Shown here piece after piece: positions 1,869 to 31,912 of a stretch of 36,942 nucleotides of DNA. Made by a program: the position numbers and the translations under genes. Position 1 is the first letter of the stretch. Each line of letters opens with the position of its first letter. The notes beneath the pieces are model-generated. The model was not told the DNA's origin. It saw nothing but the letters and a program-made list of their open reading frames with translations, and did not search any database. Source of the DNA: an uncultured Bacilli bacterium (GTDB lineage: Bacteria > Bacillota_I > Bacilli_A > RFN20 > CAG-826); the NCBI GenBank assembly GCA_947625975.1, contig CANQQL010000011.1, positions 1 to 36,942 on the forward strand, read 5' to 3'.

Positions 1869-3734
1869 CTATCTTTTAATAATTGCGTGGAATGGACATG
1901 CACTTATACACATACCACATTTGATACATTTATTTGGATCAATCACAAATGGAGTTTTACCAACTTCACCAGAAATTGCTGTGACAGGACATCCACGTGC
2001 ACATTTACTACATTTTTTACATTTATCTGGGACAATATAATATTCCATTAAATTTTTACAGACCTTAGCCGGACATTTTTTGTCTACAACATGAGCAATA
2101 TATTCATCTCTAAAGTGCGTAAGAGTGGAAATAATTGGGTTTGCCGCTGTTTGACCTAAGGCACACAAGGAACCAGCTTGGACAGCTTGTCCTAACTCTT
2201 CAAGTTTTTTAATATCTTCTAAAGTGCCTTTCCCATCCGTAATTTTGGTTAATGTTTCTAACATTCTTTTAGTACCAATACGACATGGAGAACATTTTCC
2301 ACATGATTCATCACAAATAAATTCCATATAGAATTTTGCAACGTCAACCATACAGTTATCTTCATCCATGACAATCGCGCCACCAGATCCCATCATTGAG
2401 CCCAATGCTACTAAATTATCAAAATCGATTGGTGTGTCAAGGTATTCTGCAGTTAAACATCCTCCAGATGGTCCACCTGTTTGAATGGCTTTGAATTGCT
2501 TACCATTTGGTATTCCACCGCCAATATCATAAATCAATTCGCGAATCGTGGTTCCCATTGGAATTTCTACTAATCCGACATTGTTGATTTTACCACCAAG
2601 AGCGAATACTTTTGTACCTTTAGATTTTTCTGTTCCATATTTTGTAAAAGCTTCAACGCCTTCTCTTAATATGTATGGAACACAAGCCAAAGTTTCAACG
2701 TTATTAACAATAGTTGGTTTATCCCATAATCCCTTAATAGCAGGAAATGGTGGTCTTGGGCGTGGCATACCACGTTGCCCTTGAATAGAATTCAATAACG
2801 CAGTTTCTTCACCACATACAAATGCTCCAGCACCAAGACGCAAATGGCAACGGAAACTGAATCCTGTTCCCAAAATGTTATCACCGAGCAAGCCTAATTC
2901 TTCCGCTTGTTTAATTGCTACTTGTAAACGATGGACAGCAATTGGATATTCAGCTCGGACATAAAAATAGCCATTTTTCGCACCTATTGCATAACCAGCA
3001 ATCATCATACCTTCAATAACGGCAAGTGGGTTTCCTTCTAAAATAGAGCGATCCATAAATGCACCTGGATCTCCTTCATCGCCATTACATACTACATATT
3101 TTTCATCATTTTCTTGATTATATGCGAATTGCCATTTTCTACCGGTTGGGAATCCTCCGCCTCCACGACCACGTAATCCAGAATTCAAAATGATATTAAT
3201 AACTTCTTGTCGATCCATTTTTAGTGCTTTTTCCAAACCTTGGAATGCACCATAGCCGAGAGCTTCATTAATATCTTCTGGATTAATAAGACCACAGCCA
3301 TGTAAAGCAATACGAACTTGTTTTTTATAAAACGTTAAGTCATCTTGTTTTGCTACTTTAGTTTTGGTAATGGGATCTTCAATTAATAAACGATTTACTA
3401 TTTCATTACCCATGATATCTTTAGCAATTATTTCTTCACAATCTTCGACTTTAACGCCGTGATATAATGTGTCTTCTGGAAAAATCTTGACAAAAGGTCC
3501 TTTTGAGCAAAAACCAAAACAACCGACTTGATTAACTGTTACTTTGTCCTCAAGATGATTTTCCTTGATTAATTCCAGTAAGCGATTTTTAATTTGGTCA
3601 GAATTTGATGATAAGCATCCAGTTCCTCCACAAACCACAATAGCGCGTTTGCCATCAGTACTATTAAATTTAATATCTAAGCATTTAGTACATTTGCTAA
3701 TTCTTTCCTTAAGTTCATCATCCGTCTTAATCAT
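1869..3734 (-). CDS. hydB: NuoF-like hydrogenase subunit (HydB/HndC), FMN/NADH-binding with C-terminal 2x[4Fe-4S] ferredoxin
   Basis: SGLRGRGGGGFPTGRKW FMN/NAD motif, GDEGDPGAFMDRS, ESCGKCSPCRIG, C-terminal CxxCxxCxxxCP repeats; N-terminal thioredoxin-like 2Fe-2S cysteines. Confidence 0.94.
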   Translation of the reverse strand: MIKTDDELKERISKCTKCLDIKFNSTDGKRAIVVCGGTGCLSSNSDQIKNRLLELIKENHLEDKVTVNQVGCFGFCSKGPFVKIFPEDTLYHGVKVEDCEEIIAKDIMGNEIVNRLLIEDPITKTKVAKQDDLTFYKKQVRIALHGCGLINPEDINEALGYGAFQGLEKALKMDRQEVINIILNSGLRGRGGGGFPTGRKWQFAYNQENDEKYVVCNGDEGDPGAFMDRSILEGNPLAVIEGMMIAGYAIGAKNGYFYVRAEYPIAVHRLQVAIKQAEELGLLGDNILGTGFSFRCHLRLGAGAFVCGEETALLNSIQGQRGMPRPRPPFPAIKGLWDKPTIVNNVETLACVPYILREGVEAFTKYGTEKSKGTKVFALGGKINNVGLVEIPMGTTIRELIYDIGGGIPNGKQFKAIQTGGPSGGCLTAEYLDTPIDFDNLVALGSMMGSGGAIVMDEDNCMVDVAKFYMEFICDESCGKCSPCRIGTKRMLETLTKITDGKGTLEDIKKLEELGQAVQAGSLCALGQTAANPIISTLTHFRDEYIAHVVDKKCPAKVCKNLMEYYIVPDKCKKCSKCARGCPVTAISGEVGKTPFVIDPNKCIKCGMCISACPFHAIIKR

Positions 3735-4222
3735 TACTTAGCACCTCCTAACGCACGATATTCATTAATAATTGTTTGCACTTGATTAACAGTCATTTTT
3801 GGATAAACTTTACCATTAATACTTACTGCTGGAGCAATACCACACGCTCCGATACAGCGCAAAGCATCAATTGTAAAAAGTCCATCTCCCGTTGTCTCAC
3901 CAGGTTTAATTCCCAAAATTTCTGAGAATTTGTCACACACTTGTTGAGCTCCTTTAACATAACAAGCGGTACCAAGGCAGACACCAATTACAAATTTTCC
4001 CTTTGGTTTTAAAGAGAAAAATGAGTAAAAAGTAACAACACCATATATTTCGGCAACCGGAATGTCTAGTTTTTCCGAAATAATTTCTTGTACTTCAAAA
4101 GGAATATAACCAAATTCTTTTTGCACAGCACTTAAAATCATCATCAAAGGTGTAGGTTCATCTTTATACTCAGCGATGATTTCATCAACTCTTTTTACAG
4201 CAGTTGAACTTAATTTTGCCAT
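3734..4222 (-). CDS. hydC: NuoE-like 2Fe-2S hydrogenase subunit (HydC/HndA)
   Basis: Thioredoxin-like 2Fe-2S family (GVVTFYSFFSLKPKGK, CLGTACYVKGA, CIGACGIAPA). Start placed at MAKLSS because AGGAGG lies just upstream (gtataggaggagttttATG); the ORF track extends to 4279. Confidence 0.93.
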   Translation of the reverse strand: MAKLSSTAVKRVDEIIAEYKDEPTPLMMILSAVQKEFGYIPFEVQEIISEKLDIPVAEIYGVVTFYSFFSLKPKGKFVIGVCLGTACYVKGAQQVCDKFSEILGIKPGETTGDGLFTIDALRCIGACGIAPAVSINGKVYPKMTVNQVQTIINEYRALGGAK

Positions 4223-4442: not shown

Positions 4443-5679
4443 TTATAAACTAACTTTGTGTGGTTTTGTCCCTTGTTTAAATTGCAAATTACCTTTTTCT
4501 ATTGCCGATACCGGGCAAACGGTTGCACATAAATGACAGCCAACACATTTATTCTCATTTATTTCCGGACGACGTGATTCTACATTCCAAGAAATTGCTT
4601 GATGCCCGCCATCAAAACATGAAATGTAACATCGCCCGCAGCCAACACATTTTTCACTAACAACTTTAGGATAAATTATATAACTACGATCTAACTCTTC
4701 GCAAGGAATGATGTTTTTGTTAGCTAGCCCCACTAATTCATCTAAAGAATCCAGCCCTTGATCATCCAAATAATGCGATAATCCATTACATAAATCTTCA
4801 ACAATTCGATATCCGTATTGCATAATCGCAGTCGTAACCTGTAAAGTTTTTGCTCCCAACAAAATAAATTCTGCTGCGTCTTCCCATGTTTCAATTCCCC
4901 CAATACCGGAAATCTCCAAGTCTTTAATACCCGTTCTTAGCTGTTGGATAAAACGCAACGCTATCGGTTTAACTGCCTTACCGGAATAACCGGAAATGGA
5001 AGATTTCCCATTGACAATTGGTAATCCAATTTTTTTGTTTAAATCTAGATTACAAATAGATTTAACGGTATTAATAGCCGAAATTCCATCTGCCCCACCT
5101 TCTAAACAGGCTCTGGCAATTGGAATCATATCAGTCACATTTGGTGTCATTTTTGCCATCATTGGTAAAGCGGAACCTTTTTTTTACAGCCTGACAATAT
5201 TTTTTACACAATTCTGGATTTGTGCCTACATCTGATCCCATTTCATGTGAAGTCATTTGCGGGCATGACAAATTCATTTCAATCATATCCGCACCAGCTT
5301 CCTCGACAAGTCTAGCCAGTTCGGTCCAATCGTCTTCATTTGTTCCCATGATTGAAGCAATAAGCACTTTATGAGGATATTTTTCTTTCAATCTTTTTAA
5401 ATCGCGGAGATTTTCCTCTAAACTATGTTCTGCAATTTGCTCCATATTTTTAAATCCAATAAAAGGCGTATCTTCTTTTGTTAAAGCGTCAAATCTTGGA
5501 GAAACTTCATTTATCAAAAAATGCTTTGGACCAATTGTTTTAAACACTACGCCCGCCCAGCCGGCATCATAAGCTTTTGCACACATTTCATAGCAATTTC
5601 CGACCGGTGAAGAAGATAAACAAAACGGATTTTCGAATTTCACACCCAAAAAAGTTATGGATAAATCTTTATGTTTCAT
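4443..5679 (-). pseudogene. preA: NAD-dependent dihydropyrimidine dehydrogenase subunit PreA, interrupted by a +1 frameshift in an A8 run
   Basis: Two overlapping ORFs in different frames (5131-5679 N-terminal DHOdehase-like half; 4443-5162 C-terminal half with two 4Fe-4S motifs). Removing one A from the A8 run (5178-5185) yields ...[23 protein letters not shown]..., a continuous protein. Confidence 0.85.
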
Positions 5680-26030: not shown

Positions 26031-27008
26031 CTATCTCCCTACTTTTTTTAGCAATTCTTTTTTAGTTTCCTCATCGGCAAATGAGATTTCTATAGCATTT
26101 CTAAGTAATTTTCTTTTTTCGCCATCGGTTAAATGCAATTCTTTTTCTAATAATTGAAACTCCTTCTTTAATGTGGTTTGTGATACCACCATATTATCAG
26201 TATTTACCGTCACAAGTATACCTTTTTTAAGAAAAGTTTTGAGCGGGTATTCTTGCAAATTTTCTACGGCTTTTGTTTGTAAATTACTTGTTGGGCACAT
26301 TTCGATGCCAATTTTTTTATTTGCTAAGTATTCCATAAACCTCTCATCATCTATGGCACGAATACCATGTCCAATTCTTTTGGCTCCAAATTTAACTGCA
26401 AATCTTATTGAATCAATTGAATCAGATTCACCAGCATGTATGGTAAAAGGTATATTTAATTTTCTAGCAAATTCAAACTCTTTTTCAAACATTGATGTTT
26501 TAAATAAACCTTCAGCACCTGCTAAGTCAAGAGCACATACACCTTGTCCTAAAAATTTTTTTGCGACATTTATTGTCTCAAAATTTAAATTATGATTATC
26601 CTTTCCACGCATGCAACACAAAATAACTTGTGCTCTTATCGGATACTTTTTCATTGCTCTATTCATTCCAGCAAGAACTGCTTCTACTACTTCAAATTGT
26701 GTTAAACCTTTTTTTAAATGTAGTTGTGGTGCAAATCGCACTTCGGTATAAAAAATATTTTGCTTATTTAGACGTTTTAATAAATCATACATTACTTCGC
26801 TTAAACCATATTTCGTCTGCATTGCTAAACCCGGAAGTTCAAATCTTGTTAAATAATCATTTAAATTAGCGCAATCAATTGGACATTGTAAAAATTTTAA
26901 TAATTCTTGTTCGTTATAAGTAGGCAAAATAATGTTTTCTTTTTTAGCAATTTTTATCAAAGTATCAGGAAATACTGATCCATCTAAATGCAAATGTAAA
27001 TCAATCAT
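26031..27008 (-). CDS. add: Adenosine deaminase (housekeeping size, 325 aa)
   Basis: IDLHLHLDGS, IPFTIHAGESDSIDSI, RIGHGIRAIDD, VTVNTDNMVVS. Confidence 0.93.
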   Translation of the reverse strand: MIDLHLHLDGSVFPDTLIKIAKKENIILPTYNEQELLKFLQCPIDCANLNDYLTRFELPGLAMQTKYGLSEVMYDLLKRLNKQNIFYTEVRFAPQLHLKKGLTQFEVVEAVLAGMNRAMKKYPIRAQVILCCMRGKDNHNLNFETINVAKKFLGQGVCALDLAGAEGLFKTSMFEKEFEFARKLNIPFTIHAGESDSIDSIRFAVKFGAKRIGHGIRAIDDERFMEYLANKKIGIEMCPTSNLQTKAVENLQEYPLKTFLKKGILVTVNTDNMVVSQTTLKKEFQLLEKELHLTDGEKRKLLRNAIEISFADEETKKELLKKVGR

Positions 27009-27203: not shown

Positions 27204-27231
27204 TTGAAAATATAAGAAGCTATGCTAATAT
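27204..27231 (+). promoter_or_regulatory. Candidate promoter for the RdrA/RdrB-like operon
   Basis: TTGAAA (27204-27209) - 16 nt - TAATAT (27226-27231), followed by GGGGG Shine-Dalgarno-like site before ATG at 27252. Confidence 0.4.
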
Positions 27232-27251
27232 AAAAAATAGGGGGCATAATT

Positions 27252-29111
27252 ATGAGTAAATATTTTTTTCTTGATCCACATCCTTATGAAATTGATGAAA
27301 ATCCAGCATATAAAGATTTTTTTAGATGTATTTCAGAAATAAGCAATGATACATTTTATTATAACGAAAGCTGTGCAGTAAAAGATTCTATCTGCACCTC
27401 TAACATTGAGCATTCTAATATAATTACAGTGTTAGGAGGAAGAGGTTCTGGAAAGACTTCTTTTTTGCTTTCTGTTAAAGAACATATTAAAAAGAAAAAT
27501 GTAGAATATTATGTAATAAATGAGTTGATAGAACCAGGTGGAATTTTAGATTCTAATAATATTTTGAAATTAATATTATCTGCGGTTTTTAATGATTACA
27601 TAAATATAACCGAACAAAACAATAAAGATAAAAACCCAGAATTATTAGAACAATTTGTGAAAATAAACAAATATGTAACAAGACTTACTAAAAACAATAA
27701 TACATTTGATGATTCTGATGACCTTTTTGCTTTGAGACATATTTTTAAAATTAAGCAAGAATTTTATAAATTATTTTCTTTGTTCCTTAATGAAGTCAGT
27801 ATTAATAACACTACAAAAACAGTAATTATAATGATTGATGATATGGATTTAAATAGCAGTGATTGCTATGATATGTTAGAACAAATAAGAAAATACCTAT
27901 CTATACATAATGTAATAATAGTTTTATCTGGCAATAAGAGTGATTTTGAATATTCTGTTAAAAATGAATATGTTAAAAATTATAAAATCTTACTTGAAGG
28001 CAGAAATAATAATCTTTTTATAAATTATACCATTATAGAAGATATGACTAAGAACTACTTAGTTAAAGTGTTACCAGAAGTATACCGGATTGAACTTAAA
28101 ACTAATTTTCTTGATATAGTTGAAAAAGAATCGTTGAAAAAAATATTTAATTATATTTATATTGATTTTGATGGTTTTAAGTCTGTTTTTAAACTTGACA
28201 TCTTTACTAAAATTTTAGGTAATAACCTTAGGGAAAGAATACAATTTTTTTATAAATGTACTCGGGAGATTCTTGATATTAATTTAAGTGAAGAGGAAAA
28301 AAGAGCAAGGGTTATTGAGATTTTTTTAACTAAACTTGAAAATGAATGTGATTTAAATTTAAGTCAATTTACTAAAGTCGATTTAGAATTTTTTCAAAAA
28401 ACAGCTATTAATAGGCAAACTAATTTAATATCATTTGATTCTGTATATTTAGGAATTGTGTTTGCAAATTATGTTAATAATATCTCTATACCTATTAGGC
28501 AATTTTATAAAATTTTCGAAAAACCAGAATTCTCAATCTGCGACAAATCTTTTTTGCAAAACAAATTCACTACTATTAATTTGCCAGACACAATATATTT
28601 ATGGGATTTTTTAACTGATGATGAGCTAAAATACTATGCCTTTTTTGTATATCAATTTATGTATTATGTATACCTAGTAAATATTAGCGTTTTTAAAAGA
28701 AAAGATCGTGGCCTATTATATGAAATTTCCAAATTTAATTTTAAAAATAAAAGTATTATTAGTGTAGCTATAATTAACATAATTCAAAAAGTAGATAACA
28801 TGAAAGTGCTTGGAGTAGAATTAGATTTTTCAAAAATATCAAAGATTATAGATAAGCTTAAACGTGCTAAAAATACTTATTTTAAATTAAATGATGTTTT
28901 TAAAGACATTAAAAAAATTGATAATCTTGCAACTATAAATAAAATTAGAGAATTAATAACTTCAAGAACTAATGTAACAAAAAATAGATTTAATAAAATT
29001 CAAAGAACAAATTATGAAGAGCATACTAAAATGTCTAAAAGCAAAAAAGATGAATTTAACGCGGATTATAATCAAATAATTGATTGCCTTATTGACGAAT
29101 ATAATATATAA
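27252..29111 (+). CDS. RdrA-like P-loop ATPase (RADAR-type defence)
   Basis: Walker A GGRGSGKTS (residues 62-70), Walker B-like VIIMIDDMDL (191-200), sensor-1-like VIIVLSGNKSDF; 12-nt gap to a large adenosine-deaminase-family gene. Confidence 0.75.
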   Translation: MSKYFFLDPHPYEIDENPAYKDFFRCISEISNDTFYYNESCAVKDSICTSNIEHSNIITVLGGRGSGKTSFLLSVKEHIKKKNVEYYVINELIEPGGILDSNNILKLILSAVFNDYINITEQNNKDKNPELLEQFVKINKYVTRLTKNNNTFDDSDDLFALRHIFKIKQEFYKLFSLFLNEVSINNTTKTVIIMIDDMDLNSSDCYDMLEQIRKYLSIHNVIIVLSGNKSDFEYSVKNEYVKNYKILLEGRNNNLFINYTIIEDMTKNYLVKVLPEVYRIELKTNFLDIVEKESLKKIFNYIYIDFDGFKSVFKLDIFTKILGNNLRERIQFFYKCTREILDINLSEEEKRARVIEIFLTKLENECDLNLSQFTKVDLEFFQKTAINRQTNLISFDSVYLGIVFANYVNNISIPIRQFYKIFEKPEFSICDKSFLQNKFTTINLPDTIYLWDFLTDDELKYYAFFVYQFMYYVYLVNISVFKRKDRGLLYEISKFNFKNKSIISVAIINIIQKVDNMKVLGVELDFSKISKIIDKLKRAKNTYFKLNDVFKDIKKIDNLATINKIRELITSRTNVTKNRFNKIQRTNYEEHTKMSKSKKDEFNADYNQIIDCLIDEYNI

Positions 29112-29123
29112 AAATTCATTAAT

Positions 29124-31745
29124 ATGAAAGATTTTGAAAGAATATATGCGCTTTTAGATATATCACTTGAAAAGGATCTCATAAATTTTTATTTAACAAA
29201 TACATCGAACATATATGTGAATTTATTAGAAAATATTGATAATAAATTTGTTGCAAGATTAAACAATATTTTATTAGAAAATTATTCAAATACCCACAAC
29301 ACATTTGACGAAATAAATAATTATATAAGATTTTCAAAAGATTATAGTAAAATATCTGGAATTAAATCTAATTACAATCTTGTTGATTATATTTTAGAAA
29401 TTTCTAACGATTTTATTAGATTATTGCCTGAACCTCACATTGATCAATGCAAAATTATTGATTGGCGCAGTTTAGTTCACCATTGCGGAGAAGATATTTT
29501 TATTGTTGCACAATTAGCGCAATCACATCTAAGCAATATTAAGTTTAATTGGACGCCAATAATAACATCTGATGATCGAAGATTAGATATGGTATTATCG
29601 AAAGGAATCTCTGAAAATCATAATCACATTTATGGAGCCGCGCCTGTATGTGATTGCAATTGGTACATTTTGCATAATAAGAAAATGTCTGTGGATAAAC
29701 TTATTAGCTTAGACAAAGTTCAAACTGACTCAAATAATTTATTTAGAATTCACATGATGCGTGCTATTTTAATTAGAAAGTATTTTTTTACAAAATTCTT
29801 TTATCCAACTAACGAAGTGAATAGTGAATATATTTGCACGGAGAAAAAAAAGATAGAATCTTTTTTATCAATTAACGATTATACTACTATGCTCTGTGAT
29901 TTTTATGAATTAAATAATATCCCCACTACCTTTAACGAAAAAACACTAAATTCATACGATGATTACGCTATGGCATTGTGTAAAGGTGAAAACATTTGGG
30001 AGGGCGAAAGAGCATTACTTTATTATATGTTTTTAAATTACAATAATAAAAAAATGTTTAATGATAAAGATAAAATCTTGATGCACCTATATTTAATTTA
30101 TAGAAATGAATTTTATTCTAATTTTATTGAAAGTAGAAAAAGCCCCGGTTTTCATGTCTTTTCGTTATATGATGAAAACAAAACTATGTTATTAAGCGAA
30201 AAAGATGATAGTTTATTAATAAATTATGCAGTTAGATCCATAAAAGAATGTCATATTAAAAACTATGAATTACGGATTACTCCTTCTAGAATATCGAATA
30301 TAAATAATATTATTAAACAATTAATAAAATCGCAAAGCTATAATAAAAATAATAAAAAATGGATAGATAATTATTATTACGGTAACATCCAGGATTTAAA
30401 AAAAGCAATTTTAAATAATCATTTAGTAGTACATTTCATAAAAAAATACGAAAAAATGAAAATATATGATAACGAAATTGCTGAACCAAGAAACTATTAT
30501 TTAAGATGCACATTAAAGCAAAATGCTACACAGCTTTATAACTATCTAATATCTTCATGTTTTTCTGCAAAATTTATTACCGGTATCGATGCCGCGAATA
30601 AAGAAATAAACTGTGGCCCAGAAGTATTTGGGCAATGTTTTAGATATTTATCTCAGGCTAAATATAAAGATTTTTATAGCGATGAAATTAAAATGAGTTT
30701 AAATGGTTTAACTTTTCATGTGGGCGAAGATTTTATTGATATTCCTGGTGGACTGCGGGCTATTTTTGAGGCTGTTCTTTTTTTGGGATTACATCCAGGC
30801 GACAGATTGGGTCATGCAATTGCTTTAGGTATCAATGCAGAAGAATATTATTCACTAAAAGATTATACAATTTTTAAAGATAAACAAATGGCACTGGACG
30901 ACTACGTTTGGATGATATATAAACTGCGCTTTTTAGGAAAACTTAATACATTATGCGAAGATTTAAAATATGAGGCTAGCAGATTACTAAATGAATTATA
31001 TTGTCATGATTCTAATAGTGTTTATTCCTTATCTGATTATTATGACTCTATGAAACTACGCGGTGATAATCCCGAAGTTTATAAACAATGGTATTTAAAT
31101 CAAAAAGAGGTTAATAAAAATGAAAAAATTGAAGATTTCTTTTCAAAAACAAATTTTTTAACACCAAATAGCTACAATTTTTATGCTTTATCTAATAATG
31201 AATCTGTAAGCAAATCTAGAAAAAATCTTAAAGCAGTTGAATTATATTATAAATATCATTATTGTGTAAAGACACGAATTGAGGGTAAAAAAATAATAAA
31301 AATCAACATATCAAGTGAATATGTGAAAGCAATCTCTGATTTACAAAACTTATGTAAAACTCGTTATATTAATGGGAATAGATTAATAGTAGAAGTAAAT
31401 TTGACATCAAACTATTTAATAGGCTCATATAGGGGCTATAAATTTTCTACATTGTACAGCTTTAATCAGTACAAATTAAATGACTCCAAGAACGATAATA
31501 TACAAGTGTGCTTAAACACAGATGACTCTGGCGTTTTTGCAAGTAATTTATTTACAGAATACTCTATTTTACTTTCAATATTAACAAATAAAGAAGATCA
31601 TCTAGATGATACGCCAAAATACGATATTGAAAGAGTATATAATTATATTGATTACCTTAGGGAAATGAGTAATACTTTCTCTTTCTATTGTGAAGGAAAA
31701 GTAAATATAGATTTTTTTATAAAAACAAATTTATATCTCGACTAA
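29124..31745 (+). CDS. RdrB-like large adenosine-deaminase-superfamily protein (RADAR-type defence)
   Basis: ADA-family metal/catalytic motifs: SENHNHIYGA (H166, H168), FHVGEDF (H532, E535), GDRLGHAIALG (H564), NTDDS (D800, D801); 873 aa; paired with upstream P-loop ATPase. Confidence 0.82.
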   Translation: MKDFERIYALLDISLEKDLINFYLTNTSNIYVNLLENIDNKFVARLNNILLENYSNTHNTFDEINNYIRFSKDYSKISGIKSNYNLVDYILEISNDFIRLLPEPHIDQCKIIDWRSLVHHCGEDIFIVAQLAQSHLSNIKFNWTPIITSDDRRLDMVLSKGISENHNHIYGAAPVCDCNWYILHNKKMSVDKLISLDKVQTDSNNLFRIHMMRAILIRKYFFTKFFYPTNEVNSEYICTEKKKIESFLSINDYTTMLCDFYELNNIPTTFNEKTLNSYDDYAMALCKGENIWEGERALLYYMFLNYNNKKMFNDKDKILMHLYLIYRNEFYSNFIESRKSPGFHVFSLYDENKTMLLSEKDDSLLINYAVRSIKECHIKNYELRITPSRISNINNIIKQLIKSQSYNKNNKKWIDNYYYGNIQDLKKAILNNHLVVHFIKKYEKMKIYDNEIAEPRNYYLRCTLKQNATQLYNYLISSCFSAKFITGIDAANKEINCGPEVFGQCFRYLSQAKYKDFYSDEIKMSLNGLTFHVGEDFIDIPGGLRAIFEAVLFLGLHPGDRLGHAIALGINAEEYYSLKDYTIFKDKQMALDDYVWMIYKLRFLGKLNTLCEDLKYEASRLLNELYCHDSNSVYSLSDYYDSMKLRGDNPEVYKQWYLNQKEVNKNEKIEDFFSKTNFLTPNSYNFYALSNNESVSKSRKNLKAVELYYKYHYCVKTRIEGKKIIKINISSEYVKAISDLQNLCKTRYINGNRLIVEVNLTSNYLIGSYRGYKFSTLYSFNQYKLNDSKNDNIQVCLNTDDSGVFASNLFTEYSILLSILTNKEDHLDDTPKYDIERVYNYIDYLREMSNTFSFYCEGKVNIDFFIKTNLYLD

Positions 31746-31912
31746 TTAATAAATTATCTTTCTTAGCATAGCTTTTTAATACGAATATTATAAAGACAAA
31801 AGTACTATATCAAAATTTTTGATATATTATTTATAATTTATTATTAAGAAAGCAAAATATTTTGATATCCTTATTAGTGCAAAAGGCAATGAACATTTAA
31901 AGATTACTTTTA

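Follow-up and report, generated by a model that had tools for sequence, protein, structure and literature searches.

In the RADAR system of E. coli, a heptamer of the ATPase RdrA docks by its crown on a dodecamer of the deaminase RdrB, and ATP and dATP are converted to ITP and dITP during infection with little RNA editing (PMC9994260). In vitro, ATP and dATP are substrates of E. coli RdrB, whereas AMP, adenosine and hairpin RNA are not deaminated (PMC9994260). The RADAR system of C. rodentium was first claimed to edit RNA, and it gave a weak A-to-G signal (PMC9994260). The average length of RdrA is ~900 aa and its C lobe is a suspected sensor only (PMC9994260). Here we analyze a gene pair found in a contig of an uncultured Bacilli bacterium (GCA_947625975.1, CANQQL010000011.1); the whole stretch of 36,942 nucleotides that was analyzed is referred to as the window.

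Results

A tandem of RdrA-like and RdrB-like genes

An earlier note, made by reading the window, had described a P-loop ATPase ORF followed by an 873-aa ORF 12 nt further on, and had claimed that together they form a RADAR system (RdrA plus RdrB). Both ORFs were confirmed; rdrA precedes rdrB in tandem on the + strand. The features of the locus are:

27204..27231, + strand: putative promoter-like site upstream of rdrA (TTGAAA-16-TAATAT), a consensus match only
27240..27245, + strand: GGGGGC, ribosome-binding-like leader of rdrA, 6 nt before the ATG, read in the sequence
27252..29111, + strand: rdrA-like gene, 619 aa, KAP/AAA+ P-loop ATPase (NCBIfam NF041743, PDB 8hr7, Walker A/B)
29124..31745, + strand: rdrB-like gene, 873 aa, ADA-superfamily deaminase (NCBIfam NF041744, PADLOC RdrB, PDB 8fnw, residue map)

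The RdrA-like protein is composed of an AAA+ core (residues ~55-285), a crown-like helical insertion (~101-185) and a C lobe of ~275 aa (~346-619). Walker A (GGRGSGKT at 62-69, with lysine K68) and Walker B (IDDMD, D196/D197) are present, and K68 and D196/D197 are invariant in an alignment of 10 RdrAs. Residues 101-185 align with the crown insertion region, the predicted fold of this segment being of low confidence. The sensor residue D253 of E. coli RdrA aligns to N228, an assignment that is not reliable, and no credible position was found for the sensor residue R377 in the residue alignment; a candidate counterpart of R377 is R327, in a conserved NLRE motif. In the RdrB-like protein, the deaminase ligands listed by the earlier note are all present: HNH (H166/H168), HVGE (H532/E535), GH (H564) and TDD (D800/D801), and their His, Glu and Asp residues are invariant in 11 RdrB homologues. 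Residues H152, H154, H498, E501 and H530 of E. coli RdrB (numbering of PMC9994260) map one-to-one onto H166, H168, H532, E535 and H564, so that the histidine tetrad and the catalytic glutamate E535 are intact. The glutamates E595-E597 of the E. coli 3-fold interface are not conserved and align to N, S and V. AlphaFold models built on two-row alignments were uninformative (pLDDT 38 for RdrA and 30 for RdrB).

Profile searches, suggested in the earlier note as a check, gave matches to the NCBIfam models of both proteins and to the PADLOC model of RdrB, and none to the PADLOC RdrA models. RdrA scored above the cut-off of Pfam KAP_NTPase and matched NF041743 with E=2.7e-20 (72.5 bits; equivalog cut-off 600 bits), while RdrB matched NF041744 with E=2.8e-36 (125 bits; equivalog cut-off 800 bits) and PADLOC RdrB with E=3e-20. 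When single sequences were searched against the PDB, the sole matches up to E=1 were RADAR proteins: 8hr7/8fnt for RdrA (best 2.7e-9) and 8fnw/8fnv for RdrB (best 2.8e-20). Profiles made only from the proteins of the window and of a sister species (see below) retrieved the same entries from the whole PDB (8fnw/8fnv, E=3.7e-23; 8hr7/8fnt, E=4.6e-8), with one further match that is marginal and irrelevant (E=0.08). All plasmid matches to RdrA with E<=0.01 were RADAR loci; a scan of viral contigs with RdrA gave no match. RdrB was also considered as a canonical add product (~330-aa ADA) and this was rejected (TIGR01430 27.8 bits, cut-off 216.55).

To calibrate the NCBIfam scores, a Pantoea plasmid pair was used as a stand-in for the E. 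coli system. Its RdrB is 799 aa long, equal to 8fnw_A, its catalytic residues carry the E. coli numbers, and its DNA is 89-95% identical to genes in four E. coli genomes. This E. coli-type pair also scores below the cut-offs (RdrA 128 bits, RdrB 115 bits), and scores under the cut-off are therefore no argument against RADAR membership. As this case shows, annotation based on such models (NCBIfam cut-offs, PADLOC RdrA) overlooks RADAR systems of this kind.

The residues tested do not by themselves reveal the substrate. The deaminase of a RADAR-like pair could act mainly on RNA adenosines, AMP, adenosine or a nucleotide signal and not on ATP/dATP; the RNA editing first claimed for C. rodentium would be a precedent, and RdrB is only ~18-32% identical to other RdrBs, the sister copy aside. 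We consider this unlikely, as the ADA-type His/Glu site is the same as that of E. coli RdrB, which in vitro acts on ATP and dATP and on none of AMP, adenosine and hairpin RNA (PMC9994260). Where the earlier note had spoken of action on RNA or nucleotides, conversion of (d)ATP to (d)ITP is thus the favoured part and RNA editing the less favoured one (PMC9994260).

The pair recurs in relatives in different contexts

A sister pair (locus L006) was found in the same-genus genome G003 (Erysipelotrichales bacterium HAN092), with RdrA 51% and RdrB 68% identical to the window proteins; it was the only match of a single-sequence query over the genome contigs. A third pair is present in genome G756, from the same order. 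Conservation in relatives, whose absence the earlier note had named among the grounds for rejecting its reading, was therefore observed: gene order and strand are the same in the three loci, with gaps of 12 nt in the window, 3 nt in L006 and ~20 nt in G756. Another locus, L002, was discarded as a false match to phage-type proteins. Next to the L006 pair lie a tyrosine recombinase gene (Pfam Phage_integrase, E=1.9e-39) and genes of sugar-transferase and epimerase type, a context unrelated to that of the window.

The RADAR pair was found in 2 of the 225 genomes of the family and was absent from two other genomes of the same genus. In the order, where the G756 pair was found, the sensitive 11-row profile also matches ordinary add in ~65 genomes, and matches were counted only if they covered most of RdrB. 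The rarity of the pair is normal, since the published frequency of RADAR is <1% of genomes (PMC9994260).

Between the window and L006, dN/dS is 0.08 for RdrB, indicating strong purifying selection, and 0.39 for RdrA. Split by region, RdrA gives 0.15 both for the crown by itself and for core and crown together, as against 0.64 for the C lobe; all these ratios are rough because synonymous sites are near saturation. Amino-acid identity, which is independent of saturation, follows the same opposition: ~75% in core and crown (76% in the crown region 101-185) and ~32% in the C lobe. At the level of sequence, this contrast would fit a conserved engine and docking surface combined with a fast-changing sensor. 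Conservation of the ORF pair at 51%/68% identity in a sister species, with dN/dS of 0.39 (RdrA) and 0.08 (RdrB), argues that it did not arise by chance.

Signals upstream of rdrA were also compared. A GGGGGCAT leader precedes rdrA in both the window and L006, a AACTATTTGAAAA-like stretch is also found upstream of rdrA in L006 and the -35-like TTGAAA is common to both loci; the number of promoter-like consensus matches in the region is not above that in shuffles. An exact 12-nt inverted repeat, AAGCTATGCTAA, which may be due to chance, flanks the window pair at 27217-27228 (+) and 31763-31774 (-), its upstream copy overlapping the putative -10 region. As the repeat is absent from the L006 locus, no claim of a mobile element is made.

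The window pair lies at the variable edge of a conserved block

The neighbours of the pair include an adenosine deaminase gene (add, 26031-27008; TIGR01430 302.9 bits) and a uridine-kinase-family gene, and the earlier note had placed the pair in a housekeeping neighbourhood. More exactly, the pair sits at the edge of a conserved block running from the ribosomal-protein operon to add, an edge at which the sister species differ in gene content. The order rpsJ-queH-queA-tgt-udk-add is kept in the sister species G001, G002 and G003 with no RADAR beside it, and G003 retains a second block, DUF5662-ZIP-MntR-CopA-CsoR, on a different contig. As the two blocks are conserved separately, the window pair is located at their junction. 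To the right of add (window 27009 onward; L029, L030, L031), the genes differ in each of four species of the genus. A clean empty site was not found, the two junction blocks not being adjacent in G003. Contig chimerism was considered and no sign of it was seen: for RdrB and for each flank there are relatives in the same genus at 68-79% identity. Elsewhere in the window (4443-5679, - strand), a preA-like dihydropyrimidine dehydrogenase gene appears to be broken into two ORFs, 5131-5679 and 4443-5162, which overlap and lie in different frames; the frameshift is either real or due to sequencing.

Because adenosine deaminase and uridine-kinase-family genes directly adjoin it, the pair might be taken for a metabolic nucleotide deaminase with a chaperone-like ATPase, serving nucleoside salvage beside add and udk with no role against phages. 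This is very improbable: the rpsJ-to-add block is kept in three sister species that lack RADAR beside it, the sister pair is located elsewhere, and the pair is sporadic in the family. The adjacency of the adenosine deaminase gene to the RADAR-like pair is most likely a coincidence. Both add and DUF5662 were rejected as RADAR accessories since they occur without RADAR in sister species. In agreement with the earlier note, which had seen no evident accessory membrane protein gene, no accessory gene was detected in the gaps around the window pair or beside the L006 copy.

A monophyletic group with short RdrA proteins

Complete RdrA proteins are 619 (window), 619 (L006) and 655 aa (G756) long compared to 789-1178 aa in all other clades sampled, a small sample biased to plasmids, viral contigs and Bacillota, within which they are the shortest. 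In these compact RdrAs the C-terminal lobe is roughly halved, and none of the three matched the PADLOC RdrA models. In the RdrB tree, the three compact systems are monophyletic (support 98/97) and nested in a larger branch (100/99) that also includes Aureibacter, other Bacilli and some viral contigs; the RADAR systems of genomes G092, G266 and G779 fall in another RdrB branch.

The short RdrA could be the sign of a decaying, non-functional RADAR remnant with a truncated gene. Such a reading has very little to recommend it, as the sister RdrA is also 619 residues long, the third (655 aa) belongs to the same supported clade, no catalytic residue has been lost, purifying selection on RdrB is strong and the leader has been kept. 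Combined, the profile searches, the conservation of the pair, the residue map and the tree support placing the proteins in RADAR, as the earlier note had claimed, and the gene pair is very probably a genuine, complete and divergent two-gene anti-phage system of compact form.

Similarity between RdrAs of different clades ends after residue ~285-355, and no resemblance could be detected between the C lobe of the window RdrA and those of other RdrAs. No C-lobe similarity was detectable between the established E. coli-type and Aliivibrio-type clades either; an unrelated C lobe is thus normal and a short one is not. The earlier note was right in calling the system divergent within a low-GC Firmicutes (Bacillota) lineage, the short RdrA being the notable divergence. 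Its suggestion of a novel or poorly described system was too generous for what is a divergent variant of a structurally solved one; the new part is modest and consists of a monophyletic sub-branch with a short RdrA. We tentatively raise the possibility, on which we remain doubtful, that small-genome Bacilli have a compact RADAR subtype of their own, whose RdrA works with a C lobe of about half the usual size, so that its trigger, and perhaps also the assembly of its ring, would not be those of the E. coli and S. suis systems. If true, this subtype would define a minimal sensing module of RADAR. With RdrA core and crown nearly the same, and with C lobes that are the shortest in the sample and only ~32% identical, the two sister systems offer a small protein on which the proposed sensing role can be tested directly.

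Discussion

By analogy with the solved E. coli system, RdrB would form a multimeric deaminase on which an RdrA ring would dock via its helical crown. RdrA, probably through its C-terminal lobe, would respond to a phage cue, and RdrB activity would rise; ATP and dATP would then be converted to ITP and dITP, and the poisoned nucleotide pool would block phage replication.

Additional genes and carriers were observed at other RADAR loci. A conserved protein of ~270-280 aa with several hydrophobic segments is encoded directly upstream of rdrA at four loci of one Bacilli family (L020:4065-4871; L083, reverse complement, 3253-4065; L084:2132-2971; L085:1591-2430; 37-90% mutual identity). No Pfam family matches it significantly and PADLOC gives no more than a weak match (PDC-M48A, E=6e-4), which leaves it as a candidate for an accessory membrane protein in this branch of RADAR. 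Genome G779 carries two RADAR systems (L083 and L084) that belong to different sub-branches, and a separate membrane-protein gene lies upstream of each. On a Cetobacterium somerae plasmid, a VanZ-family gene (L008:10362-10793, Pfam E=3.4e-21) is found 72 nt downstream of RADAR; in this single case it is a possible accessory membrane protein. Four viral-classified IMG/VR contigs of 15-46 kb (L037, L039, L040, L041) carry E. coli-type pairs, which suggests that RADAR is carried on prophages or similar elements.

Among described systems, CARF-ADA/Cad1 is a type III CRISPR effector whose ADA-type deaminase makes ITP in defence (PMC11645235); the window protein has no CARF domain and only a C-terminal ADA motif matches (E=7e-4). 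The S. suis RdrA (PDB 8fnu) is likewise a KAP-type NTPase RADAR protein and is matched by the ten-sequence RdrA profile; however, it is 907 aa long and is not matched by the profile of the compact clade itself. With the systems that typify the NCBIfam models (Aliivibrio/Salmonella plasmid; NF041743/NF041744), the window pair shares both families with significant matches, but it scores below the equivalog cut-offs and lies in a different branch of the RdrB tree. It belongs to the same larger RdrB branch (100/99) as the Aureibacter-like RADAR (L007), IMG/VR L036 and L038, G870 and G974; RdrB identity to this group is ~25-33% where measured, RdrA is longer in the group (789-962 aa where complete), and Aureibacter RADAR has a SLATT-type third gene that the window pair lacks. 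The E. coli P0304799.3 system (PDB 8fnt, 8fnv, 8fnw; the 8hr7 series matches too) differs by an RdrA of 947 aa instead of 619, an unrelated C-lobe sequence, an RdrB whose E. coli-type stand-in aligns with the window RdrB at only ~20% identity, and an E595-E597 motif absent here. Both systems nevertheless share the tandem RdrA-RdrB arrangement, an AAA+ core with Walker A/B and an insertion at the crown position, and an identical RdrB His/Glu site in the same order.
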